Shown here piece after piece: positions 14,955-47,322 of a stretch of 64,000 nucleotides of DNA (positions are counted from its first letter, which is position 1; each line of letters starts with the position of its first letter). The position numbers and the translations under genes are program-made. The stretch is from Scardovia inopinata JCM 12537 (lineage in GTDB: Bacteria; Actinomycetota; Actinomycetes; Actinomycetales; Bifidobacteriaceae): contig NZ_AP012334.1 in NCBI RefSeq assembly GCF_001042695.1, forward strand, positions 1,116,001-1,180,000, read 5' to 3'. The notes under the pieces were generated by a model, which ran no database searches, had not been told where the DNA came from, and worked only from the letters and a program-made list of their open reading frames with translations.

Positions 14955-17900
14955 TTATTTTGTCCACGAAGTCGGCCAATTAATCGGTTTGTCTAATTCT
15001 TCCAAAGCAGGAAGAGAGTTTACTATTCTCTGAGTTTCTAGAGTTAATGTAACCAACGATTCCAGGAGATCAACCACATACCTTGGATTTTTTGTTTCAG
15101 TTATCCATTCGTTTGGATCTTTTTTAATCCCACTCTTTTTATCTGTTTTGACTCGATATTGATCCATAACCCATTCAATAGGTGATTTTCCAGAAATTTT
15201 ATAATCATATATTGTATCGGGAATACCATGAAGAACAAGATAATTATTGATAATAATAGTAGTCCTATCATCACCCTTAAGATTTTCAGCGGTCTTAGGG
15301 ACCTTACCGAAGGTAAGTCTATCAATGTGATAAAGCTCTTCTGGATCTTTAGAAAATAAGCTCTCGTAAGCTGACGAATTAATCCATTCTTCGGAAATAC
15401 GGTCTTCCCCAACATATCCTTCTAAAGATTCATAGTTGATATGCAACTCAGCAAGTTCTCTCCCTATGCGTTGGAAAGTAGAAAAATCTTTTGCCAGAGG
15501 GATCCTAGCTAATTCTTTCCTCAGGTTATAAGTAAAACGCTGACGATATTCGTTATTATGGAGGATGCCATAAATATAATAAAAAATTTGCTCTTTCGCT
15601 TTAGAAACATTATCTGAATGTAAAGCAGAAACATCAGGGTAAACTTGACGAAATACCTCAAGCGTCTGATCTGTTATTGCATCATGTCTAATAAAAGTAG
15701 TGCCATCTGCTGTTGTGAAGCGGACATCACCGTTTTTGAGTGATGCTTCCGAAAAGTCCAGCTCTAGCTCATCTTTCAAGTCTGATTTTTCTTTATCAAT
15801 CTCTTCGTACCAGTACAGTGGGAAACACTGTCCTCCGGCAGTCATCGAATTTAGATCTGCTAATGTCTGGGTCATCAGGCATGAAAACCCACTATTTCCT
15901 ACCCCCGTCGTTACAATGCATCGATTGATAAACTGAGAATCATCAATGAGGGAGGGGGAAGCACTCCTGTACATCCTCTCGCACTCCTGTACATCATCTT
16001 CAAGATTAGAGGAGTTCGCTTCGCTCACCAATTTTAATGGGAATAAAATCGCACTCCTGTACATCATCTCGATAAGTCTGGGGTCATAATATAGCCATTC
16101 CTTTGTAAATGGACGATACATGCTCTGCACAAGAAACTTATCAGAGTATTTTATTTTGATACCTCTTCGAAGCCGATTCAACAATTCACGATCCCAACTT
16201 AGAACCTTAGGATCGTATTCAACAAAATCTTTCGGATCAATTTCCCGTTTATTTAAAGTTGAATGCCAGAAAATACGATTTTGCTCGTACCAATCAATTG
16301 ATTTCTTTGTACGATTCTCAATAGTTTGCCTTCCAAAACCATAGCTAAAGCTGTCCCTGCCAGTTTTTATGCCGTTTGAATACACTGAAAAAATTCCAGC
16401 GGCACCATGAACACTCTTCAATCCAAGCGGTATAAACCCTTGGAACGCATCATCTCTCTGATTCAGCCAATCTCCATGAGAATCAGGAATAATAATCTTC
16501 CAATCAGTCTGGTTCTCTTTCACCATGTCTGAAAGCGTAGAGAGTTTCTCTGACCGCTTGAGGTAATCTCCAATATCATGGTAATGAATCACACCCTGGT
16601 GCTCTGCTTCAGGATCACAAACTAATAGAGTGATGGTAATAGGAGTCTTCGATTGCGAACCGAAGACATTATCACCCTGCCGTTTGAGTTCCTCTTTGGG
16701 CAACCGACGAAACTCTTTATTTCCCATCAAATTCAATACATAAATATCACTAAACTCTGCAACCAATGATTTTCTAAAGCCGTCAAAGGCAGTTCCATCA
16801 AGCCAGCCTCCGCCGCTTACAAAACAAATGATCCCTTTACCTGATATTGCAGTGTCTGCTCTTATGTTACGGCTAAGAATTCGATCTGAAGCCCACCGAA
16901 ATGCCCGGATATATGAGTCATATAATGCATTTTTATTTACTGCCTTAGTATTAGCAGCGTATGTTTGTGCAATACGTTTATCCAAATTCTCATAGTGATC
17001 ATTTGAATTATTATCATTTGCTGATTTTTGACCAGCAGAATAGGGAGGGTTCCCCATTATCACTGTAATAGGCTTTTTATTCTGTTCAATAACTCGGGCA
17101 CTATTCCGGGTGAATACTGATTCATCAATACTGTTACTGTCCTCTGTCATTTGGAAAGTATCGGTCAGAACTCCACCACTAAATGGCTCATAAACAGGAG
17201 GTTGGATGTTATCTTTACTCCCCACCTCTTTGATCTTGGAATAATTATCAAACTGCACTGCATAGTATTCTGATTCAATATTTACCATAGCAATGTAGTA
17301 GGCTAGAAGCATTATTTCATTAGCAAATATTTCAGAACGATACTTTCGCTGTAACTTATTCGGCGAAATAAGACCTGACCTAATAAGTTCAACAATGAAT
17401 GTTCCTGTACCTGTGAACGGATCGAGAATAGTCACTCTATCATCTTCAAGATGCTTACCAAAATGCTCAGTGAGTTTGTTATCAACCAAATGAAGAATAT
17501 AATTGACGATTTCTAACGGAGTATAAACAATTCCAAGCTTATCAGCATCTGATTTGAAAGCAGTACGGAAAAAAGACTCATAAAGATTTCGCACCAGAGT
17601 TTGACGAGCAGCTTCATCATTCCTCACCGCTTGAGCAGATGTTCGTACTTGAGAATACAGTTGGCGAAGATCGTCATTGGGATCCGCAGCCTTGATCTTA
17701 GGACGTAACAATTCAGTAATCGGCATTAGCGCCTGCGAAACAGGATTATTCTCAATAAAGGACTTGCCCGAAGAATCTTTTTCATGCGAGAAGAGAGCAT
17801 CGAATATAGGAGAAGTAAGGATATGCTGGGACAGCATGCCCACAGCATCATCCTTGGTTATATTAGGATTCAGAGTATCTCGTAACCCATGCAAAAATGA

Positions 17901-20438
17901 ATCGAACTCTTGCGATATCTGTTTGTCAGTCCGTATCTGCTCATTAATAATATTACTTGTTTTAATAGCGATTTCAGAAATTGAGTCTGCCCAATCCTCC
18001 CAATAAGTTGTATCTCCGCATTTACGCACAAGCTGTGCTTGGAACTGTTCGGATATCTCACCTCCAAAATCAAATTCGCCTTGTTCACTGGTGTTTTGAT
18101 CATTCAGCAGAGAGTCATTGCCGCTATCCTGATCAATAAACTGGTTCGATCTAGTTGAATAGCGCCGCTTCACTGATTTCCTATGTAAACTCAGAGCATT
18201 GATACGAGCGTCCAACCGTTCATCATGAGACCTTAACGACTGTAAGATATCCCACACCGTATGAAAATCTGAAGTGGATAAAATCGCATCCGGAGTTGAG
18301 CCATCAGGGATAACAACAGGGAGAATAATATAACCATAATGCTTATTCTCTGCTTTTCGCATTACACGCCCTACCGCCTGTACTATATCAACCTGCGAGG
18401 CCCGGGGCTGGAAGAAAATAACTGCATCCAGCAGAGGAAGATCTACCCCCTCAGTTAAGCATTTTGCGTTGCTGAGTATACGGCATCCATCTGGATCTTC
18501 CTGCCGATCAGCTAGCCAATTTAGCAGTTTTCGACGTTCCTTGGTCGGCATAGAACCATCTACATGCTCAACCTTCGGAATAATTGTTCCCTCCAGTGAA
18601 GCGCCTTGCTTTTCAGATTGTTGAATATATTCAGAAATTACATCGCTAAAACCATCTGCCAGTATTTTCGAATCGTGAATAGTCCTCGTAAAAGCAACGG
18701 CAGTATGCATATGCTCGATTGATGAAGTTAAACCAGAATGAGAATCCACATCATTATCGTTTAAGATAGCAAATTGAACCTGTTCTCCAAGCCCCGTATC
18801 AATATCAATGTCCTGCTGTTCCTGACGATGAATCCCCTTAGTCATCAAACCGTTCCAAGCACCAAGAACTTTCGCGGAAAGAGATTCTGCCTGTGTTCGA
18901 ATTTTTAGCTTATCCTGAGCTGCTTTTTCTGCCTTATCTTTAGCACGCGATCTTCTTTCGAGCTGTTCAATCGAATCAATTTGTTCCTGGAATGTTTGTG
19001 TTTCTTGTATTCTCTTTGCAAAGTTAGTTCCTTGAGATTCAGCAATTCCAAGCACCAGCACCCGGTAATCAGTAAGAATTCCTTTAGCTACTGCATCGCC
19101 GAACTTCAGACGATGGAATTCCCTCCCAAATGTATCTTCATCGTCCATAGAAAAGGTAGTGAAGTCATTTTTAACTGCCTTAGTCTGCGCAGCTTGTGTA
19201 TAAACTCTAGGAGTTGCAGTCATATACAAGCGCTTTTTAGCATGAACAAGACTATTATCATGCACCTTCACAAACGCTGATTTAACACCAACGTTATCAG
19301 CAACACCTGCTGTCCGATGGGCTTCATCACAAATGACGAGGTCAAACTCTGGAAGTCCTTCTTGCGCCTGAGCAGCGATGATTGTATCAATCGATTGATA
19401 TGTTGAAAAAACTACAGACAGGCCGGTAGATTGCTCTCCTATTTTAATATGATCAGCCAAAAGTCGAGGGTCAGTCGTTGTTGGAAATGGGACATCAAGA
19501 ACACTCCCGTCCCATTCATCATTATCTCTTTTATTAGCAGTTGTGTCTGAACACACCACAAAACTTGAAATTTGCTCTTTGCTCTGATGCGTCCAATAAT
19601 TAAAAGTTTGTGAAACTAGCGCGATTGACGGAGCTAAGAACAGCACTCTGAAAGGACTATTCTTTGATTCGGAATATTCATTATCTCTTTCTTCCCTTAA
19701 TTCCTCTGCAAGACGCAATGCAGTTAAGGTTTTCCCAGTGCCGCAGGCCATAATAAGTTTTCCCCTGTCGTCGGTTTTAAAACCGTCAATACAGTCCTGT
19801 ATTGCTTCATTTTGATAAGGACGAGGTTCAAATTTTTTAAGATTATGGTAATGCGATTCTGGTAAAAATGCAGACCAGTCAACGAATTCATTATTCAATT
19901 GTTCCGAATCGAGTACTACCACGTTACGGGGAGATGCCTCTTTTTCGAGTGTTTGTGTAAGCCCTCCACCTGTATGAGCAATAATAAAATGGCCACGCTT
20001 AATGCCACGCGTATCACTAGAAGCAAAAAAAGTAGAAACATCTGAAAAATCAAGCTTTCGATCATCTGCGTAATACTTGCATTGAATAGCCCATAACTCA
20101 CCTGAACGATCTTTGGCAACAAGATCTATACCGGTATCATTCTTGGGAAAATCTTCATATTCCCCATGAATCAGAGGGTTACCCTCATCTCCCCACATCC
20201 AAACATTTATAAAAGTCGATGCCCATGCCGGATCATGCATGAGAAAGTATCTGACTGCATATTCAAACGCAGTTCCACGAACACGCTGATTTCTTTTTCC
20301 TTGTGAAGAAAGCTTCACTGCATCTAGTTTTTCAATCGCATCCAGAACATCGTCAAAAGTAGTCGTTGCCATGTTTGCTATGATATCGTTCTGGAAGAAT
20401 AACTCGAAGTAATCTCGACACTTCGAAAACATACTCAT
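14955..20438 (-). CDS. Type ISP-like single-chain restriction-modification enzyme (nuclease-helicase-methyltransferase)
   Basis: An 1827-residue protein combining all activities of a restriction system. Domains in order: Mrr-like PD-(D/E)xK nuclease (RGTAFEYAV at ~55, D105 in NDTGIDLV, QCK at 119-121); SF2 translocase with Walker A CGTGKT (~232-237), DEAH (371-374), TATPRVY (~408) and a helicase C-domain (QAVGRVMRKAENKHYG); N6-adenine methyltransferase with DPFTGTGTF near 1003 and NPPYSAG near 1127; then a target-recognition region with YRPFTKEWLYYDPRL. This order is that of LlaGI/LlaBIII-type enzymes, in which one protein recognises, methylates on one strand, translocates and cuts. The start is uncertain: MATTTFDDVLDAIEKL from 20372 looks like the family start. 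No separate specificity gene is nearby. Composition is AT-rich relative to flanks, suggesting transfer. Confidence 0.9.
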   Translation of the reverse strand: MSMFSKCRDYFELFFQNDIIANMATTTFDDVLDAIEKLDAVKLSSQGKRNQRVRGTAFEYAVRYFLMHDPAWASTFINVWMWGDEGNPLIHGEYEDFPKNDTGIDLVAKDRSGELWAIQCKYYADDRKLDFSDVSTFFASSDTRGIKRGHFIIAHTGGGLTQTLEKEASPRNVVVLDSEQLNNEFVDWSAFLPESHYHNLKKFEPRPYQNEAIQDCIDGFKTDDRGKLIMACGTGKTLTALRLAEELREERDNEYSESKNSPFRVLFLAPSIALVSQTFNYWTHQSKEQISSFVVCSDTTANKRDNDEWDGSVLDVPFPTTTDPRLLADHIKIGEQSTGLSVVFSTYQSIDTIIAAQAQEGLPEFDLVICDEAHRTAGVADNVGVKSAFVKVHDNSLVHAKKRLYMTATPRVYTQAAQTKAVKNDFTTFSMDDEDTFGREFHRLKFGDAVAKGILTDYRVLVLGIAESQGTNFAKRIQETQTFQEQIDSIEQLERRSRAKDKAEKAAQDKLKIRTQAESLSAKVLGAWNGLMTKGIHRQEQQDIDIDTGLGEQVQFAILNDNDVDSHSGLTSSIEHMHTAVAFTRTIHDSKILADGFSDVISEYIQQSEKQGASLEGTIIPKVEHVDGSMPTKERRKLLNWLADRQEDPDGCRILSNAKCLTEGVDLPLLDAVIFFQPRASQVDIVQAVGRVMRKAENKHYGYIILPVVIPDGSTPDAILSTSDFHTVWDILQSLRSHDERLDARINALSLHRKSVKRRYSTRSNQFIDQDSGNDSLLNDQNTSEQGEFDFGGEISEQFQAQLVRKCGDTTYWEDWADSISEIAIKTSNIINEQIRTDKQISQEFDSFLHGLRDTLNPNITKDDAVGMLSQHILTSPIFDALFSHEKDSSGKSFIENNPVSQALMPITELLRPKIKAADPNDDLRQLYSQVRTSAQAVRNDEAARQTLVRNLYESFFRTAFKSDADKLGIVYTPLEIVNYILHLVDNKLTEHFGKHLEDDRVTILDPFTGTGTFIVELIRSGLISPNKLQRKYRSEIFANEIMLLAYYIAMVNIESEYYAVQFDNYSKIKEVGSKDNIQPPVYEPFSGGVLTDTFQMTEDSNSIDESVFTRNSARVIEQNKKPITVIMGNPPYSAGQKSANDNNSNDHYENLDKRIAQTYAANTKAVNKNALYDSYIRAFRWASDRILSRNIRADTAISGKGIICFVSGGGWLDGTAFDGFRKSLVAEFSDIYVLNLMGNKEFRRLPKEELKRQGDNVFGSQSKTPITITLLVCDPEAEHQGVIHYHDIGDYLKRSEKLSTLSDMVKENQTDWKIIIPDSHGDWLNQRDDAFQGFIPLGLKSVHGAAGIFSVYSNGIKTGRDSFSYGFGRQTIENRTKKSIDWYEQNRIFWHSTLNKREIDPKDFVEYDPKVLSWDRELLNRLRRGIKIKYSDKFLVQSMYRPFTKEWLYYDPRLIEMMYRSAILFPLKLVSEANSSNLEDDVQECERMYRSASPSLIDDSQFINRCIVTTGVGNSGFSCLMTQTLADLNSMTAGGQCFPLYWYEEIDKEKSDLKDELELDFSEASLKNGDVRFTTADGTTFIRHDAITDQTLEVFRQVYPDVSALHSDNVSKAKEQIFYYIYGILHNNEYRQRFTYNLRKELARIPLAKDFSTFQRIGRELAELHINYESLEGYVGEDRISEEWINSSAYESLFSKDPEELYHIDRLTFGKVPKTAENLKGDDRTTIIINNYLVLHGIPDTIYDYKISGKSPIEWVMDQYRVKTDKKSGIKKDPNEWITETKNPRYVVDLLESLVTLTLETQRIVNSLPALEELDKPINWPTSWTK
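15961..16069. repeat. short direct repeats inside the recognition-domain coding region
   Basis: GCACTCCTGTACATC occurs at 15961-15975, 15981-15995 and 16051-16065. The second and third copies are identical over 21 bases (15979-15999, 16049-16069). Offsets are 20, 70 and 90 bases, so two of the three pairings are not multiples of three and the copies are read in two different frames (MYRSA versus VQEC). Confidence 0.85.
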
Positions 20439-29913: not shown

Positions 29914-31206
29914 ATGGCACATACAGTTCTGGTAATTGGGTCCGGTGCCCGTGAGCACGCTATAGCTTATACTCTTTTGAAGGGTCAGACTGTAGGTAAG
30001 GTCTATTGTGCGCCTGGCAACCCTGGAATGGTGGCTGACGGCATTACTGTGATTCAGCTGGCTCAGACAAATCATGCAGCCATCATTGATTTTGTCAAAG
30101 ATAAAAGCATAGACTGGGTTTTTGTTGGCCCTGAGAACCCTCTGATGGAGGGGCTGGTCGATGATTTAACCGCCGCAGGAATTAAAGCATTCGGACCTAC
30201 CCGCCAGGCTGCTCAGATTGAAGGCTCAAAAACTTTTGCCAAGCAGCTGATGCACCGCCATCATGTGCCCACGGCTAAATACGAATCCTTTGATAATCTG
30301 GCCGATGCCCTGGCATATGTAAAGAGTCACGGAGCCCCTATTGTGGTGAAGGCTGACGGCCTGGCAGCCGGCAAAGGAGTAACAGTTGCCATGAATGAGG
30401 ACACGGCCAGGGCAGCTCTGACCGATATTTTTGTTGACAATAAGTTTGGTTCTGCCGGAAGCAGCGTTGTCCTGGAGGATTTCCTTCAGGGACAGGAATT
30501 TTCCCTCATGAGCTTTGTCAACAAGAATCATTTCTGGACCATGCCGGTTTCGCAGGATCATAAACGTGCCTACGATGGCGATCTGGGTCCCAATACCGGC
30601 GGAATGGGTGCCTACAGTCCTCTCCCCCAAATTTCCAACGAAACTGTTCAGACTGCTATCAATACCATTGTCAAACCCACTGTTGAGGGAATGAACGCCG
30701 AAGGAATCCCCTTTACCGGTATTCTCTATGCCGGACTGATTGCCACAGCTGACGGCCCTCAAGTCATTGAATTCAACGCCCGGTTTGGAGATCCGGAAAC
30801 TGAAGTTGTACTCCCCCGCCTGACTTCTGATTTAGGTGCAGGAATTGAAGCAATTCTGTCCGATCAGGAGCCTGTTTTCACCTGGGAGGACAATCAACGC
30901 ACCACTTTGGGCGTTGTTCTTGCCTCCGACGGCTATCCTGATCACAGCCACACTGGTTCTCTCGTACCCGACCTGCAATCAGCCATCAACCAGGCAGGTA
31001 TTGAAGAATCTACACACATTTTCTATGCTGGTGTAAAAAATTCCGCTGCTGGTGAGCTTCTGTCCTCCTCTGGCCGTGTTTTGCTGATAGAAACAACAGC
31101 AGATTCTCTTCCAGAAGCACAGGAACGGCTCTACTCCATCCTCGATTCTACCCATACAGACGGTTTCTTCTACCGCCACGATATAGGAGCCAAGGCACTG
31201 GCTTAG
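29914..31206 (+). CDS. purD: phosphoribosylamine--glycine ligase
   Basis: ATP-grasp enzyme forming GAR from phosphoribosylamine and glycine. The ATG at 29914 follows AGAGGA by 4 bases and gives 430 residues beginning MAHTVLVIGSGAREHAI, the family start. VVKADGLAAGKGVTVA is the ATP loop and GDPETEVVLPRL the metal/substrate region. The frame is open upstream to the purM stop without conservation. Last gene of the forward purine run; what follows is the AT-rich peptide-exporter cluster. Confidence 0.97.
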   Translation: MAHTVLVIGSGAREHAIAYTLLKGQTVGKVYCAPGNPGMVADGITVIQLAQTNHAAIIDFVKDKSIDWVFVGPENPLMEGLVDDLTAAGIKAFGPTRQAAQIEGSKTFAKQLMHRHHVPTAKYESFDNLADALAYVKSHGAPIVVKADGLAAGKGVTVAMNEDTARAALTDIFVDNKFGSAGSSVVLEDFLQGQEFSLMSFVNKNHFWTMPVSQDHKRAYDGDLGPNTGGMGAYSPLPQISNETVQTAINTIVKPTVEGMNAEGIPFTGILYAGLIATADGPQVIEFNARFGDPETEVVLPRLTSDLGAGIEAILSDQEPVFTWEDNQRTTLGVVLASDGYPDHSHTGSLVPDLQSAINQAGIEESTHIFYAGVKNSAAGELLSSSGRVLLIETTADSLPEAQERLYSILDSTHTDGFFYRHDIGAKALA

Positions 31207-31534
31207 GCGATCAGCAGCAACTCATCCTTTTTACGTAATTCTTTACATGCTACAAACAAATTCTTAAAGAGTAGAACAATTGTGCAAGCATAAACGCTAC
31301 AACCTAAAAAAAGAAGTTCGTATAATGTGGACTAGTTTTTGTTCTATGTGGAATCAGGCCACATCAGCTACTTATTCACTACCAAATAGAAAATTAGACC
31401 ATAACTTTCCCGCAATATTCAATTGTAAGAAGTAAGGTAAATATTATTTATATTTCTATATTTATTCACGAATTCAAATACGCTAAACTATTTTTTTAAA
31501 GAAACGCCGTTTTCTTCTTTATTTTTTAGTGATA
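31207..31534. other. AT-rich region between purD and the peptide operon
   Basis: No recognised gene. A good -10 TATAAT is at 31321-31326, without a convincing -35 at 17-18 bases. Downstream, a 29-codon frame from ATG 31346 to 31435 would be almost leaderless from that promoter; it has no ribosome site and I do not call it. A small hairpin AAGAAA/TTTCTT near 31499-31516 followed by T-rich sequence might be a weak terminator. Confidence 0.35.
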
Positions 31535-31577
31535 TACTTCTTTCTAGTGTATTAAATAAATACACTAGAAAGAAGTA
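31535..31577. promoter_or_regulatory. perfect 19-bp inverted repeat before the peptide operon
   Basis: Arms 31535-31553 and 31559-31577 are exactly complementary around a 5-base AAATA spacer. The left arm overlaps a -10-like TATACT (31533-31538), and the right arm contains AGAAAGAAG, the only plausible ribosome site for the ATG at 31581. It could therefore be a repressor operator over the promoter, or an RNA hairpin that hides the ribosome site if transcription starts further upstream. Not followed by a T-run, so not an intrinsic terminator. Confidence 0.7.
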
Positions 31578-31580
31578 ATT

Positions 31581-31748
31581 ATGAGTATTACTGTTAGGAA
31601 AAGCAATGCTGAGCTGAATGAGCCAAATAACCGGCTTATTATTGTCAATAAATCATTCATCGTGATTACCCTTATTCACGATATTGTTATGCTAGATAAA
31701 AGTCCAACTCTACAGAAGAAACGGACTTTTAGGCTGGCAACAATTTAG
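31581..31748 (+). CDS. 55-aa peptide heading an unrecognised exporter operon
   Basis: A short open frame too small for usual gene callers. The product begins MSITVRKSNAELNEPNNRLI, has a hydrophobic middle (residues ~19-38, IIVNKSFIVITLIHDIVML) and a basic C-terminus (QKKRTFRLATI); it has no cysteine and no signal-peptidase site. Support for being real: an AGAAAGAAG ribosome site 5 bases upstream, immediate position after the inverted repeat, and only 8 bases to the next gene, with that gene's ribosome site overlapping this stop. It may be a ribosomally made peptide precursor (leader plus core), a small regulator or a short membrane peptide. I cannot assign a family. Confidence 0.55.
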   Translation: MSITVRKSNAELNEPNNRLIIVNKSFIVITLIHDIVMLDKSPTLQKKRTFRLATI

Positions 31749-31756
31749 GTTATCCA

Positions 31757-32605
31757 TTGTCTCAGCAATCGTATAAACAAGTACTAGCTAATATGAGAGG
31801 ATTGGTGGGTAAAATTATCCAGAGTAACCTACCCTTCTTCTCATATTCCTCTCTTGTCGAATCTGGCAAGGTAGAGAATATAAAAATTCTCAGTGAATTC
31901 TTTATCTACTTATTGGTGACTCAGGATAAATCGAATAAATTACTTTATTCGAAAAACAACCCTATGAATCTGCACCTTGCGCCATCTATTGATGATTCTT
32001 TGTATGAACAACTTCTTATATTACAAGGCGTATTATTTAATAATAATAGTGCTTCACTACCCGACCAAGAATTGACACGTAGCCAATACGATTCATTATT
32101 ACCACATGAAAGGATCCAGTACTTATGGATTCTAAACCAAACAAAGCCAGAAAATCTAGCAATAAAAATTAAAGAGGCACTCTTAGAAAGTAATGCCAGC
32201 AGACAGACAGACTTATACTATTATGACTTTGCCGATCTTTACTATTTGACCCATTCGATATTTTTTGCTTGTGATTTTGGGAAAACCGATATTCACAAAT
32301 TCATAGGAGAAAAAATAATTGAGAAGATGATACAGAATATCTTGGCAGATATAGTGTTTGCTCTCAAACTGAAGCATGACGATTTATGCGCAGAATTATT
32401 TATCTGTGTTGCATCGATCAAAGAACACCTACGTCCAAGAGAGAGAGAACTATGTCAACAATTATTCGAATTTTTTTATCATAATCGTTTAGTTCCGTTT
32501 CTTTCTAAACCAACTGTCACCTTTAGTAAAAAAACAGATGCTTATCATATTTCATTAGTTCTCGGGATGTTGGGGGCCTCCTATGCTAACAACACAAGAG
32601 GTTGA
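31757..32605 (+). CDS. unrecognised all-helical protein A of the exporter operon
   Basis: A 282-residue soluble protein with no known catalytic motif. Translation appears to start at TTG 31757, eight bases after the peptide stop; an internal ATG at residue 13 is the alternative. Sequence is rich in Leu/Ile/Lys/Asn and probably alpha-helical throughout. A YYDFADLYYLTHSIFFACDFG motif near residue 155 recalls DUF6895-type actinobacterial proteins, but this is memory of a pattern, not a search. It overlaps the next gene by 23 bases. Very AT-rich compared with purD and purK. Role unknown; as part of a peptide-plus-exporter unit it could be a modifying or immunity component. Confidence 0.75.
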   Translation: MSQQSYKQVLANMRGLVGKIIQSNLPFFSYSSLVESGKVENIKILSEFFIYLLVTQDKSNKLLYSKNNPMNLHLAPSIDDSLYEQLLILQGVLFNNNSASLPDQELTRSQYDSLLPHERIQYLWILNQTKPENLAIKIKEALLESNASRQTDLYYYDFADLYYLTHSIFFACDFGKTDIHKFIGEKIIEKMIQNILADIVFALKLKHDDLCAELFICVASIKEHLRPRERELCQQLFEFFYHNRLVPFLSKPTVTFSKKTDAYHISLVLGMLGASYANNTRG

Positions 32606-33245
32606 AAAGGAAATAGTGCTCAGGTTCAATCATGAATATGAACTTTTTGAATATCTTGAATCCGTTTATCAGATCTGTAAAACGTACATTTTATTTCACC
32701 CCACGCTAGCTAAAGACAGCTTGACACTTCTTCAAACGTTGTTACAACAATTCTTAGATTATTTTGATATTGATTCGTTAAAAAGAACGAACAATAAATT
32801 ACTCATAAAAATTCTACCAATTGAGTTTGTCTGCGCACAGTTTCGACTAATTAAAAGTGACTTATTCTCAGGTGATTTATACTCGTATGAAATTCCTCTA
32901 GAAAATTATCTTGTACTAAAAGTCGTTGAATTAACTCATTTTTATCCGAATCTTCAGCTCCCTCCTGATTTCTTTAATTTGCGAAAAAATAATGATTATA
33001 TTCACTGTTTAGATTTGTTATTTGCTAAATCTAAGCTTGGACTTGTGACATGCTTTGAGTTAAAAGAACAAGCTGAAAAAGTTTTAGAAGAAACAGACAG
33101 TAATATTCTCAACGAAGATAGCTATATTATGCTAGCTACTGCTGTCCCTAGATTAAAAAATATTCTTCCAAAAAGTATTGATACTTCTCTCTTAAAAAAT
33201 ATAAGTATAGATAAATTGTTCCTGCTTGATTCGGAGATATCGTGA
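32583..33245 (+). CDS. unrecognised protein B of the exporter operon
   Basis: A 220-residue soluble, probably helical protein. It starts inside the end of protein A's gene and ends in a GTGA overlap with the next start. Features: acidic-aromatic N-terminal segment (RFNHEYELFEYLESVYQICK), a central LVLKVVELTHFYPNLQLPPD, three scattered cysteines, no membrane span. AT-rich: 17 of 60 bases G+C in the line at 32641. It has no motif I can name. The tight overlaps indicate that A, B and C are made together, perhaps as one complex. Confidence 0.72.
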   Translation: MLTTQEVEKEIVLRFNHEYELFEYLESVYQICKTYILFHPTLAKDSLTLLQTLLQQFLDYFDIDSLKRTNNKLLIKILPIEFVCAQFRLIKSDLFSGDLYSYEIPLENYLVLKVVELTHFYPNLQLPPDFFNLRKNNDYIHCLDLLFAKSKLGLVTCFELKEQAEKVLEETDSNILNEDSYIMLATAVPRLKNILPKSIDTSLLKNISIDKLFLLDSEIS

Positions 33246-33787
33246 CTACCGCTCAGATATTAAAACATCGCATTTCTAAAGAAATTCCGATTCCTAACAC
33301 TTTCGACTTTACAAAATGTAGTCTGACCAAAACGGACAAAATTATCTTAGACTACCTGCTCAACTTTCTCTCCTACAAATTACCCAATACTTCAGCAAAA
33401 GAAAATACTCTATTTCTTTTACTCTCTCCCGAGAAAGATAACACAGAAGAATGGAAGTTACTTATTGATACAGCTGTACTCCACCCCTCAGTAGTATCCG
33501 GCCTCTCCGCCTACTACCGTCAGACATATAATCTCGGATGTCTCGCAATTCTTTGTACCAAAATCGTAGAAATACCACATATGGAAAAAGAAAGAGAAAA
33601 TATTTTACAATTTATAGATACTCAGAAACGAAGCAATGGCTACTATGGTTATGCAAATCCGTTTCTCGGTGAGACTACTAATATTTCAAATTACGAGAAA
33701 CAATTAATTTTCAATTCAACTCTATACCTATTATTGAGTAAAAAAATACTCGACATGAAGGAGAAAAATCATGACGGTGCAGAATAA
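33242..33787 (+). CDS. unrecognised protein C of the exporter operon
   Basis: A 181-residue protein starting at GTG 33242, which overlaps the stop of protein B by four bases and follows GGAG by 6 bases. Its C-terminal third has the segment FIDTQKRSNGYYGYANPFLG, reminiscent of the Q-x-x-x-G-x-(F/Y)-G repeats of alpha/alpha-toroid proteins, and a basic helical tail. It overlaps the MFS gene by 17 bases. No enzyme motif is visible. Same low-G+C character as A and B, whereas the exporter that follows is closer to the host. Confidence 0.72.
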   Translation: MTTAQILKHRISKEIPIPNTFDFTKCSLTKTDKIILDYLLNFLSYKLPNTSAKENTLFLLLSPEKDNTEEWKLLIDTAVLHPSVVSGLSAYYRQTYNLGCLAILCTKIVEIPHMEKERENILQFIDTQKRSNGYYGYANPFLGETTNISNYEKQLIFNSTLYLLLSKKILDMKEKNHDGAE

Positions 33788-35039
33788 ATCCCGAATGCAG
33801 CTGGCAATCGCTCTCATAAGTTACCTTATTGGGAACCTGACCAGCAGCATCTTCTCCTTCGTCCTGAGCATGTACGTTCTCAAACTCACCGGATCAAGCT
33901 TCACCTTTTCCGTCATTCTCCTGATTAATCCGCTGATTACCGCCCTGCTCAGTCCTGCTGTTGGATATTTTGTTGATACCTTCAATCACAAAAAAGTGTC
34001 CCTCCTGTCCCAGGCTGCCAGCGTGGCGATGATGGTTATTTTCCTCATCGCGCATGACCGTTTCACTACTCCAGGAGAAATTATTCTTATCGGAATTACC
34101 GTAGTGGTTCTTTCTCTGTGTGACAGCTTCCAGTCAACCTCCTACAAGGCCTCAACTATCCATATGGTAGCGGAGAACCATCAGCAAACTCTCATAGCAT
34201 GGGAACAGCTGATGTCTACCATCGTTATACTTCTTTACCCGACCTTGGGAGGTGTTTTTTATGGCTTCTTATCTGTAGAGATTATCGCAGTCATAGAGCT
34301 GTGCGGAGAACTGGTTGTTCTTATAGCCATAGCCTGCCTGAATTTTTATCTGGTTGCGGGTACAAAGAAAAATGAAACTGATACAGATAGTTCGCATAAA
34401 GAGTCGCTGCGGGAATCGTTTAAAACAGGCCTATCATACATGGCTTCGGATAGCGCACTCATCAATCTTCTAATCTTCGCTATTATTGCGAATTTTGCTC
34501 TGGCAGCAATCAATGTTGGCTTACCCGTCGTCTTCCTCAATCAACTGAAAATTAATACAAGTCTTTATGGGATTGTTCAGTCCTGCCTGGCCCTGGGAAT
34601 GATAGTATCCAGCCTGCTCCTCGGCATTATCAAGCTCAAGGGCAATAACCTGCGTCTGACCTCATATGCCGGTTTCGCATTAACCATAGGCTTGGTCATT
34701 ATGGCAGCAGACCTTATGCTTTCGCCTCCACAAATAATACTGGTGATAATTTTTGCTGTTTCCATTGCGCTGATAGGCATGGCCATAACAGCCACCAACC
34801 TCCCCTTCGGAATCTACATCCGTACCCAGATTGACGAAGATAAGCAGGGCAGGGTCAGTGCCATGTCCAATGCTGTGGTCAGTTTTCTCTCACCCGTAGG
34901 CATGGCCCTATACGGTTTTCTTTTTGACCATGTAGCAGCGGGCTACCTTTTCCTGGTTTCCGGCTTCATCCTTCTGGCAGATACCATTGTCCTCTTTGTC
35001 CGGGGAGGAAAAGCTCCTCAGATGATGGCAAAGAACTGA
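33771..35039 (+). CDS. MFS exporter (macrolide-efflux/MefA-like type)
   Basis: A 422-residue 12-helix major facilitator protein. The motif-A-like loop after helix 2 reads GYFVDTFNHKKVSLLSQ, and the first helix SYLIGNLTSSIFSFVLSMYVL is typical of the MefA/enterobactin-exporter (TMS) group. The central loop (residues ~200-225) is hydrophilic. AAGGAG lies 8 bases before the ATG inside the end of protein C's gene, so expression is coupled to it. It probably exports the product of the operon or gives self-protection. Composition (31/60 G+C at 34861) is nearer to the chromosome than the three upstream genes, so the cluster is mosaic. It ends 4 bases from the convergent purK stop. Confidence 0.88.
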   Translation: MTVQNKSRMQLAIALISYLIGNLTSSIFSFVLSMYVLKLTGSSFTFSVILLINPLITALLSPAVGYFVDTFNHKKVSLLSQAASVAMMVIFLIAHDRFTTPGEIILIGITVVVLSLCDSFQSTSYKASTIHMVAENHQQTLIAWEQLMSTIVILLYPTLGGVFYGFLSVEIIAVIELCGELVVLIAIACLNFYLVAGTKKNETDTDSSHKESLRESFKTGLSYMASDSALINLLIFAIIANFALAAINVGLPVVFLNQLKINTSLYGIVQSCLALGMIVSSLLLGIIKLKGNNLRLTSYAGFALTIGLVIMAADLMLSPPQIILVIIFAVSIALIGMAITATNLPFGIYIRTQIDEDKQGRVSAMSNAVVSFLSPVGMALYGFLFDHVAAGYLFLVSGFILLADTIVLFVRGGKAPQMMAKN

Positions 35040-40857: not shown

Positions 40858-41905
40858 CTGATTTGCCAATTTAATCGTTACACTCGTGGGTAAAAGAAAA
40901 GGGCCATTGATATCCTGTGAATTACCACATCCTACAGGAAAGAATAAATTCAATGACCCATACACAACTTACCATACAAGAAGCAGCACTCATACACAGG
41001 TACCTTCATTCAGGATTATCAGTTATGCAGGTTAGCGTCATTACTCATCAGTCTCGCCCTACCATTTATCGTATTAATCAGTGGGTAGACACTGGTAAAA
41101 TATTTCTGAATGGTTCCAATACACTCGTATCCCTAGAAGTCTTCGAGGAAGACATCGCTTGTGTTTGGCTTCTAGGACTGTGCGCGCATTCGTCAGTATC
41201 TGTCATATGGGTATAGTCCTGGTGTAATCGCTCGCACGAAGAATGTTGGGTGTTCTACACGTAGTCTCTACTGGCTTGCTCAGAAAGGAACTCTCTCTAT
41301 CGCGTTACTGCAATGGAAGGGGAAACGACGGAAGAATCATCACGAGGAAAAGAGAGCCGGTTAATAGGCGCGGTGTCTATCCACGAAAGAAGCAGCATCT
41401 TTCCTGACTACATGCACGTGTTTGGACATTGGGAAGGAAACACTATCGTGGGTAAAGGCAGAATACGCTGTGTCATAACACTAGTAGAAAGACTGAGTAA
41501 ACGTATCGTAACTCTACCTACCACGGGTCGTAAAACAGATGATATAGAAGAATCTCTGCATGAGTGGCTTACACGACAGCCAATAAACACGGTAAAGTCT
41601 ATTACTTTTGGCCGGGGTTTAGAATTGCTCAGTGGAAACAAGCCATTCGTGATACTGATACAAGTGTGTTCTTTGCTAATCAAGGATGCCCTGGGCAGCG
41701 TGGTTTAAACGAGAACTCGAATGGATTGCTACGTCGTAGTGGGCTGCCTAAAACTATGGACTTCACTAACGTGAACGCCTGGTATATTCGTCGTGTCGCA
41801 GCTAAACGCAATCGTATTCCTTGTGAGAGTCTAACTATAAAACACCACACAAAATATTTATGACTCATACATCGCCAAACTGTAACGATTAAATTGGCAA
41901 ATCAG
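40858..41905 (+). mobile_element. IS30-family insertion sequence, decayed
   Basis: A 1048-base element bounded by perfect 25-bp terminal inverted repeats (40858-40882 and 41881-41905; inner core GATTTGCCAATTTAATCGTT). Size and transposase type are those of IS30. The only gene inside is broken by frameshifts (next entry). I could not identify a clear target duplication; IS30 elements make short ones. It sits between yccF and the 3' end of an rRNA operon. Confidence 0.9.
40953..41863 (+). pseudogene. IS30-type transposase, frameshifted
   Basis: Starts at MTHTQLTIQEAALIHRYLHS with the N-terminal helix-turn-helix (SRPTIYRINQW). The reading frame changes near 41170, near 41355 and near 41600; in the right frames it yields RIRQYLSYGYSPGVIART, then the catalytic region FGHWEGNTIVGK, then NQGCPGQRGLNENSNGLLR. 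The first catalytic aspartate of the DDE triad (normally HWEGD) is asparagine here, a second inactivating change. Not functional as read. Confidence 0.9.
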
Positions 41906-41956: not shown

Positions 41957-41980
41957 TTCATCGTACTGTTAATGTTTGTG

Positions 41981-42097
41981 TGTGGCGGTGTGCTACTTTC
42001 CCGCGTCCTGTCGGATGGAGTATCATTGCCGTGCCAGGTCTTAGCTTCCGGGTTCGGGATGGTGCCGGGCGTTTCCCCTGGGCTATGACCGCCACAA
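41981..42097 (-). rRNA. rrf: 5S ribosomal RNA
   Basis: Read on the minus strand it begins GTGGCGGTCATAGCCC and contains CACCATCCCGAACCCGGAAG and the 3' GTAGCACACCGCCAC, which pairs with the 5' end. About 117 bases. Placed after 23S at a spacing of ~230 bases. Ends estimated to within a few bases. Confidence 0.93.
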
Positions 42098-42326
42098 GAC
42101 TCTATTCTCTTATTATTCTGTTGTTTTATTGTGTGGTGGGTTGGGGACCGGTTAGTGGACGGGGCGGCTGCTTGCTTGAGGTTGGGTGGTGTAGTATATA
42201 GTTTGAGAGTGTGTCACTAACAGTAGTGTGTTCTCTTGTTGCTGTGAGGAGTGTTACACTGTTCTTACCCGCATGCTCATACATACTCGTATAAGCTGAT
42301 GGTAAGAATGGTGAGAAAGAGAGTAG

Positions 42327-45400
<3,074 letters not shown>

Positions 45401-45557
45401 ACATCACTCACCAGCCTAACGACCCCAGACAACAACTGTCATCACACAATAATGATCACACTAAACTAAAACATTCACCCCACACCCCCCTCCCACAAGA
45501 GAGAAGCACGGGAAGAAAATGCACCACAAACACCCCACCCCAACAGGCAAGGCATTC

Positions 45558-45587
45558 GCTCGCGTCCACTATCCAGTTCTCAAACCA
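45558..45587 (-). promoter_or_regulatory. rRNA spacer antitermination/processing box
   Basis: On the minus strand the 16S-23S spacer (45401-45778) contains GGTTTGAGAACTGGATAGTG. The same TTTGAGAACT core occurs in the 16S leader, as in other actinobacterial operons, where it acts in rRNA antitermination or processing. The spacer has no tRNA gene. Confidence 0.6.
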
Positions 45588-45776
45588 CCACCCCAGACAC
45601 GCAGCAACCACCCACCAGCAATCACCACACACCAGGAAGCCCCCACACCGCACAGTCGCGGTTTGGAAACCCAACAGCATGCCCCACACTACCCTCTTGT
45701 TTTCCGACTCATCCACACCACACCAGCCACACGACTGGCAGAAAAAACACCCCCACACAGGGGGCACACATCTCCG

Positions 45777-47322
<1,546 letters not shown>

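Follow-up and report, generated by a model that had tools for sequence, protein, structure and literature searches.

A five-gene island between purD and purK/purE

The short reading frame P0001 opens a run of five genes on the same strand (31581-35039) in the window, by which we mean the whole 64,000-nucleotide stretch of DNA analysed here (Table 1). The four genes behind it, P0002 to P0005, are uninterrupted, the end of each overlapping the start of the following one, and the operon is flanked by purD (PF01071) and by a convergent purK/purE pair (PF17769, PF00731). The G+C content is about 30-39% across the first four genes, compared with about 50% in the surroundings, and about 41-52% in the transporter gene. 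P0002 was found only in the window's own genome, seemingly one of the Bifidobacteriaceae, among 151 genomes of its family, as was PF21836 among 99 relatives. Given this confinement among the sampled relatives, the five-gene island was probably acquired.

Single-protein searches with P0002, P0003 and P0004 gave no close relatives in plasmids, and searches of this kind found none in viral contigs, in the first genome-contig scan or in phages. Neither P0003 nor P0004 matched a Pfam family, and NCBIfam gave a single match, far below its cut-off, for P0003. P0005 is a probable exporter. Among plasmids it comes closest, at 29.1% identity, to a Lactiplantibacillus gene that neighbours a ThiF-type and an Rgg gene. 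There is no protease gene in the operon, and Pfam and NCBIfam revealed neither a lasso cyclase (Asn_synthase-like) nor a transglutaminase-like protease among P0002-P0005; the operon thus lacks the cyclase and protease by which a lasso peptide cluster is recognized.

Table 1. Features of the operon and its start region (positions are those of the window)
Feature	Position	Strand	Description or basis
TGATATACT, possible extended -10 promoter element	31530..31538	+	Over left repeat arm; by eye
Perfect inverted repeat	31535..31577	.	Arms 31535-31553 and 31559-31577, 19 nt each, 5-nt loop; operator or translation-blocking hairpin
P0001, candidate precursor peptide	31581..31748	+	55 aa; first gene of five-gene run
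P0002, divergent DUF6895 protein (PF21836)	31757..32605	+	TTG start; Pfam; alpha/alpha-toroid-like model
P0003	32583..33245	+	220 aa; no detectable homologue; place and overlap as gene X of Bacilli cassettes
P0004, homologue of protein Y	33242..33787	+	181 aa; motif near QxxxxGYYGYANPF
P0005, MFS transporter	33771..35039	+	PF07690/PF05977; TIGR00900-like, below that model's cut-off

The short frame and its start region

The preliminary description had presented P0001 as a short gene lying directly after an inverted repeat, and its account of the frame proved accurate. The frame runs from ATG over 55 codons to TAG, and the repeat ends 3 nt before the start codon. The ribosome site is present but weak (AGAAAGAAG, by eye) and falls within the 3' arm of the repeat. 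At the other end the TAG (31746-31748) lies inside TTTAGG before the TTG at 31757, in the ribosome-site region of the next gene, as had been described. The product is free of Cys and has the layout claimed for it, in which a polar N-terminus is followed by a hydrophobic middle and a basic tail. The highest mean over 12 residues of the middle is 2.38, and Ser-Pro stands between it and the tail.

Of 2000 dinucleotide shuffles of 31560-31760, 14 contained an open reading frame of at least 55 codons, a number that fell to 7 when only ATG starts were counted. The codon-usage log-likelihood of P0001 is -0.2, a neutral value that gives no support for coding. Leave-one-out windows of P0002-P0004 range from -0.6 to 10.6, and P0001 overlaps only the bottom of this range; it lies below all seven short ORFs that precede DUF6895 genes elsewhere (3.1 to 12.1). 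Based on the shuffle odds and the neutral codon usage, P0001 is a probable rather than a proven coding frame.

P0001 had no match in Pfam or NCBIfam. The other 150 genomes of the family sample yielded nine weak matches, none with an E value better than 0.016, and the strongest of them has internal stops; plasmids gave four partial matches at E 0.4 and phages none. No orthologous cluster with a counterpart of P0001 was found in this sample, in which P0002 is confined to its own genome. A chance open frame in a 5' untranslated region, with the peptide of the operon encoded elsewhere or the operon decaying, would fit this lack of visible conservation, the shuffles that reached the same length, and the truncated or broken DUF6895 copies of other genomes (L140, L146). 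We consider such an origin quite unlikely, as P0001 starts directly behind the repeat and sits 8 nt from P0002, and the genes that follow form an unbroken series of overlapping frames.

The repeat arm is unique in the genome, even when up to three mismatches are allowed, and the region 31480-31640 folds far better than its shuffles (z -5.8, 0/200). No Rfam family matched within 31100-34000, and the promoter scan did not list TGATATACT at 31530-31538. Ahead of the short ORFs of seven other loci we saw no repeats like that of the window, and only two of these loci have repeats with 8-bp arms. Lying across the start region, the repeat would control expression of the operon: it could be an operator over the possible promoter TGATATACT or, with transcription starting further upstream, a hairpin that hides the ribosome site.

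Such a hairpin leads to another reading of P0001, as an upstream leader ORF whose translation, together with the hairpin, regulates P0002 by coupling, the true substrate being encoded elsewhere. The neutral codon usage, the ribosome site in a strong hairpin arm and the stop codon within the ribosome-site region of P0002 are all in keeping with it. However, no other plus-strand ORF of at least 25 codons was found between the repeat and P0002, and the Bacilli peptide profile described below had no match across the window's genome, in a search that had no positive control in this genome. A peptide gene also adjoins the enzyme genes in many DUF6895 loci, and we regard a purely regulatory leader as unlikely.

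P0002 is a divergent DUF6895 protein

P0002 belongs to the Pfam family DUF6895 (2.5e-8, 34.1 bits, cut-off 23.8) and scored 30.2 bits against a profile of Bacilli DUF6895 proteins. It can be aligned along its length with the latter at 16-20% identity, and the range over all members aligned is 14-20%. In an alignment of ten proteins from several phyla, the invariant positions, all shared by P0002, are T165, H166, D173, G175, D209, E213, Y263 and H264, which form the motifs Thr-His, Asp-x-Gly, Asp-x(3)-Glu and Tyr-His. Further members vary: position 173 is Glu in the DUF6895 proteins of L138 and L139, and by eye Asp-x-Gly is missing from those of L150-L152 and its Asp from that of L156, with both His residues kept in all six. 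In a tree of 29 DUF6895 proteins the longest branch is that of P0002, weakly supported (42/50), and the tree does not place its closest relatives.

The structure model of P0002 has a pLDDT of 68 and a pTM of 0.71. No solved structure was found by sequence, and Foldseek returned nothing at E 0.001. The best row from VIA-align was a cellobiose 2-epimerase (Z 11.3, rmsd 4.3, 268 residues aligned), and the remaining rows include other helical-barrel proteins. Since unrelated helical models reach such Z values, this match shows mere compatibility of the model with an enzyme fold.

Judging by the title of a paper, a DUF6895 protein is reportedly a lasso-peptide epimerase, there called 'distinct'. 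From that title we infer epimerisation as the reaction of P0002, with which the two invariant His residues and the alpha/alpha-toroid-like model would be compatible. The lasso-peptide epimerase of MS-271, MslH, is reported to be a metal-dependent peptide epimerase. Its likeness to P0002 is one of function, by analogy only.

DUF6895-X-Y cassettes in Bacilli

A pattern scan of genome contigs returned 32 stretches, 23 of which hold a protein scoring at all on our own DUF6895 profile, and it led to a cluster in Gemella. Around this cluster and one relative, DUF6895 was counted in 6 of 398 genomes of the class, 4 of 245 of a family and 5 of 295 of an order, the three sets overlapping. Six Bacilli loci are complete (L123, L135, L136, L138, L139, L145). 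All six have DUF6895 followed by a gene for a protein that we call Y, with a motif like QxxxGYFGYxxPF, and five of the six have, between the two, a gene at a position that we call X. A peptide of 64-78 aa with a conserved [AG]GxxxW[ST]G[WY] core is encoded in five of them (L123, at 459-668, L135, L138, L139 and L145), and none was found in L136. In L135 the peptide gene stands directly ahead of DUF6895, the same place as that of P0001. ABC transporter genes lie between or around the genes in four of the five loci with this peptide. The L138 DUF6895 protein matched five plasmid records, and the Y protein of the same locus had no close relatives in plasmids.

P0004 is a homologue of Y. It scored 34.5 bits, a value reached by none of 1000 shuffles (965 scored, maximum 11.9), with a global z of 9.7, so that the window, too, has a Y homologue downstream of DUF6895. 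P0003 scored -2.2 bits against X, as 871 of 1000 shuffles did or better, and its global z was 1.5 (21/300); it shows no detectable homology to X and presumably corresponds to it by the same place and overlap. Y-like genes behind DUF6895 also occur in Eremiobacterota (L119; 25.2 bits, 0/500 shuffles, 178 scored), in Pectobacterium (L127; 13.4 bits, 0/500, 419 scored) and on a Pseudalkalibacillus plasmid (17.4 bits, 0/300, 281 scored). Other assignments failed: P0004 as a DUF6895 paralogue was not supported, and its structure model was unusable (pLDDT 50); P0003 resembled neither DUF6895 nor the Streptomyces helper described below.

We found no name for these Bacilli cassettes. They share with the window the order of an upstream peptide gene, DUF6895, a gene at the X position and Y. 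They differ in that their peptide is unrelated to P0001, P0003 is not detectably an X protein, and ABC transporters stand in place of the MFS transporter.

In three more divergent loci, L150-L152, DUF6895 is accompanied by a different small protein and by a gene of the size of an exporter, and two of the three have a short ORF in front; the small proteins, encoded behind DUF6895, had no detectable similarity to X or Y. In L140 and L146 the DUF6895 gene is truncated or frame-broken, L140 having a short ORF upstream and L146 an exporter-sized gene behind; these copies point to decay of the cassette in some lineages. Next to the Gemella cluster are a 41-aa peptide that looks secreted (by eye) and an RNPP-type regulator, suggesting quorum control of that cluster.

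DUF6895 loci in the genus Streptomyces and in other phyla

In a sample of the phylum, 6 of 396 genomes lay above the PF21836 cut-off, namely the window's own and five of one genus. The same kinds of genes on a Streptomyces contig (L124) suggest that this genus is Streptomyces or a near relative. Within the Streptomyces genus, DUF6895 was present in 73 of 150 genomes at E 0.001, 72 of them above the cut-off. A match below the cut-off (G202, locus L018) was discarded as a false positive, its locus reading by eye as a Rho gene.

In type A loci of this genus two DUF6895 genes are adjacent (paired loci L024-L028 and L077-L096), and a conserved peptide ending in LLLSPPTPRPKKG, or nearly so, was found by motif in 21 of the 25 loci fetched. 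Its gene precedes one for a helper of about 235 aa. At L024, the type A locus that was scanned, the gene behind encodes a PF00144 hydrolase. Type B has a single DUF6895 gene; of the 13 such loci fetched (L057-L064, L072-L076), seven encode a different peptide, which ends in LLLLSPKEPKEPRGK or a close variant. Single loci with such peptides ahead of helper and DUF6895 lie among L057-L063 and L074. One of the 13 single loci, L073, is a lasso-type cluster, with DUF6895 beside Transglut_core3 and Asn_synthase. In type C (L065-L071, n = 7), two DUF6895 genes surround a third gene, and a gene of MFS size lies behind. At L065, the one type C locus scanned, the third gene codes for a radical SAM protein and the one behind it for a protein of the MFS. 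By eye, the peptides of three of the seven have an acidic stretch followed by a short tail like ..EAGCIVNNSSD, with L069 partly similar, and these loci are possibly a further RiPP type.

We found no name for the paired and single loci of the genus. Like the operon of the window, they have a short peptide gene first, whose product has a hydrophobic stretch, Ser-Pro and a basic tail. They differ in that the peptide has no similarity to P0001, the helper of about 235 aa matches none of P0002-P0004, and a PF00144 hydrolase gene lies behind one scanned locus. DUF6895 lasso-peptide epimerase clusters, represented here by L073, share the family PF21836 with P0002 and differ in that P0002-P0005 include neither a lasso cyclase nor a transglutaminase-type protease; moreover, P0002 has the low identity to aligned members given above.

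Short genes directly upstream of DUF6895 were also found in three phyla, on a Pseudalkalibacillus plasmid (L155, 5545-5805), on a Streptomyces plasmid (L156, 5762-5968) and in Bordetella ansorpii (L115, 1284-1523), and a short peptide gene is likewise upstream in L140. The peptides of L155 and L156 align better than all 500 shuffles and those of L156 and L115 better than all but 1 of 500, whereas for the pair L155-L115 more than 10 of 500 shuffles did as well, which is not significant. With related N-termini in two of the three pairs, these genes possibly encode a shared leader with differing C-termini. Ten short peptides scanned in Pfam, NCBIfam or both gave none above cut-off and one chance-level Pfam match below it. 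The ten comprised one type A and one type B peptide, five of the Bacilli type or from other Bacilli, and those of L155, L156 and L115; type C, L150 and L152 lay outside the set.

Comparison of P0001 with the precursor candidates

P0001 showed no homology to any of the precursor peptides found in this analysis. Against three Streptomyces peptide profiles it was unscored, rank 96 and rank 140 among the 233 ORFs of the window. Against the Bacilli peptide profile it ranked 16 of 233, a score that 462 of 992 scored shuffles equalled. Pairwise comparison with the precursor peptides found gave nothing significant, the best score being equalled by 63 of 500 shuffles. The layout of a hydrophobic stretch, Pro and a basic tail occurs in five of six Streptomyces-genus peptides and in none of seven Bacilli peptides. 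Of the 233 ORFs of the window three show it, P0001 among them, and so do 222 of 5000 shuffled versions of P0001. Chosen after the peptides were seen, the layout is weak evidence.

The hydrophobic middle and basic tail, together with the MFS transporter in the operon, would also suit a hydrophobic peptide that stays unmodified, either a bacteriocin or a membrane peptide, with P0002-P0004 as immunity or regulatory proteins. We think this improbable, since DUF6895 genes are found in modification clusters and the published title gives DUF6895 an enzymatic role.

Discussion

The operon sets a short ORF beside a gene of DUF6895, a little-known family whose enzymes apparently modify peptides, and P0001 is a candidate precursor. 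The preliminary description had offered 'precursor or signal peptide', and the first half of this is favoured by the context: P0001 lies upstream of DUF6895, as do peptide genes in many loci, and the operon combines DUF6895 with a homologue of Y and a transporter of the MFS. A pheromone-type signal found no support: a secretion signal is not evident by eye and a regulator gene is absent from the operon, although the relative in Gemella adjoins an RNPP-type regulator.

We favour, at a probability of roughly 0.5, the reading of P0001 as the substrate in a RiPP-type operon of small size, in which P0002, together with P0003 and P0004, would modify the peptide and P0005 would export it. The role of P0001 as the substrate is suggested by its position and not by homology, and is about an even chance. 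Among the Streptomyces-genus loci fetched, 21 of the 25 paired and 7 of the 13 single ones have a short peptide gene ahead of DUF6895, as do five of six complete and two of three divergent Bacilli loci, the peptides falling into several unrelated families. These genes support the view of P0001 as a DUF6895-modified precursor. Modification is supported by the DUF6895 gene in the lasso-type cluster L073, by the DUF6895 pair flanking a radical SAM gene and by the published epimerase title. Against a precursor role stand the missing likeness to precursor families, the neutral codon usage, the dissimilarity of P0003 to X, the lack of a protease in the operon and the varying residues of DUF6895.

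Under the favoured reading, P0001 would be translated first, and P0002 would then modify the peptide together with two partner proteins, P0003 and P0004. The modification would most likely be epimerisation of residues in the hydrophobic segment (about 27-38) to D-amino acids, with the polar N-terminus acting as the recognition (leader) part, and P0005 would export the product. Translation of P0001 and export of the peptide by the MFS protein are steps that we infer. Overall, the observation is real and merits pursuit, P0001 being probably the gene of a precursor in a RiPP-type system.

Literature searches, including 'PF21836' and one peptide motif, found no description of such a RiPP-type system, and the DUF6895-X-Y cassette looks like an undescribed one. 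More tentatively, and with less confidence than we place in the substrate role, DUF6895-X-Y might be a lasso-independent RiPP class that has spread horizontally over Bacillota, Actinomycetota and other phyla and installs D-amino acids in unrelated linear hydrophobic peptides, P0001 being a member with a new core and MFS export. If so, one small overlooked gene would mark a widespread peptide modification outside lasso clusters, DUF6895 being present in about half of the sampled Streptomyces-genus genomes (73/150) and in a few per cent or fewer of the sampled Bacilli (6/398). Ready substrates would be at hand for testing DUF6895 enzymes, and the window would hold a minimal D-amino-acid peptide system of one peptide, three proteins and one exporter.

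Elsewhere in the window, transposase-like broken frames (by eye; no Pfam match) lie at about 41313-41863, beside minus-strand genes for 5S, 23S and 16S rRNA (41980-47321). A fused restriction enzyme-methyltransferase of 1827 aa is encoded at 14955-20438 on the minus strand, its best PADLOC models being Type IIG and Type I.
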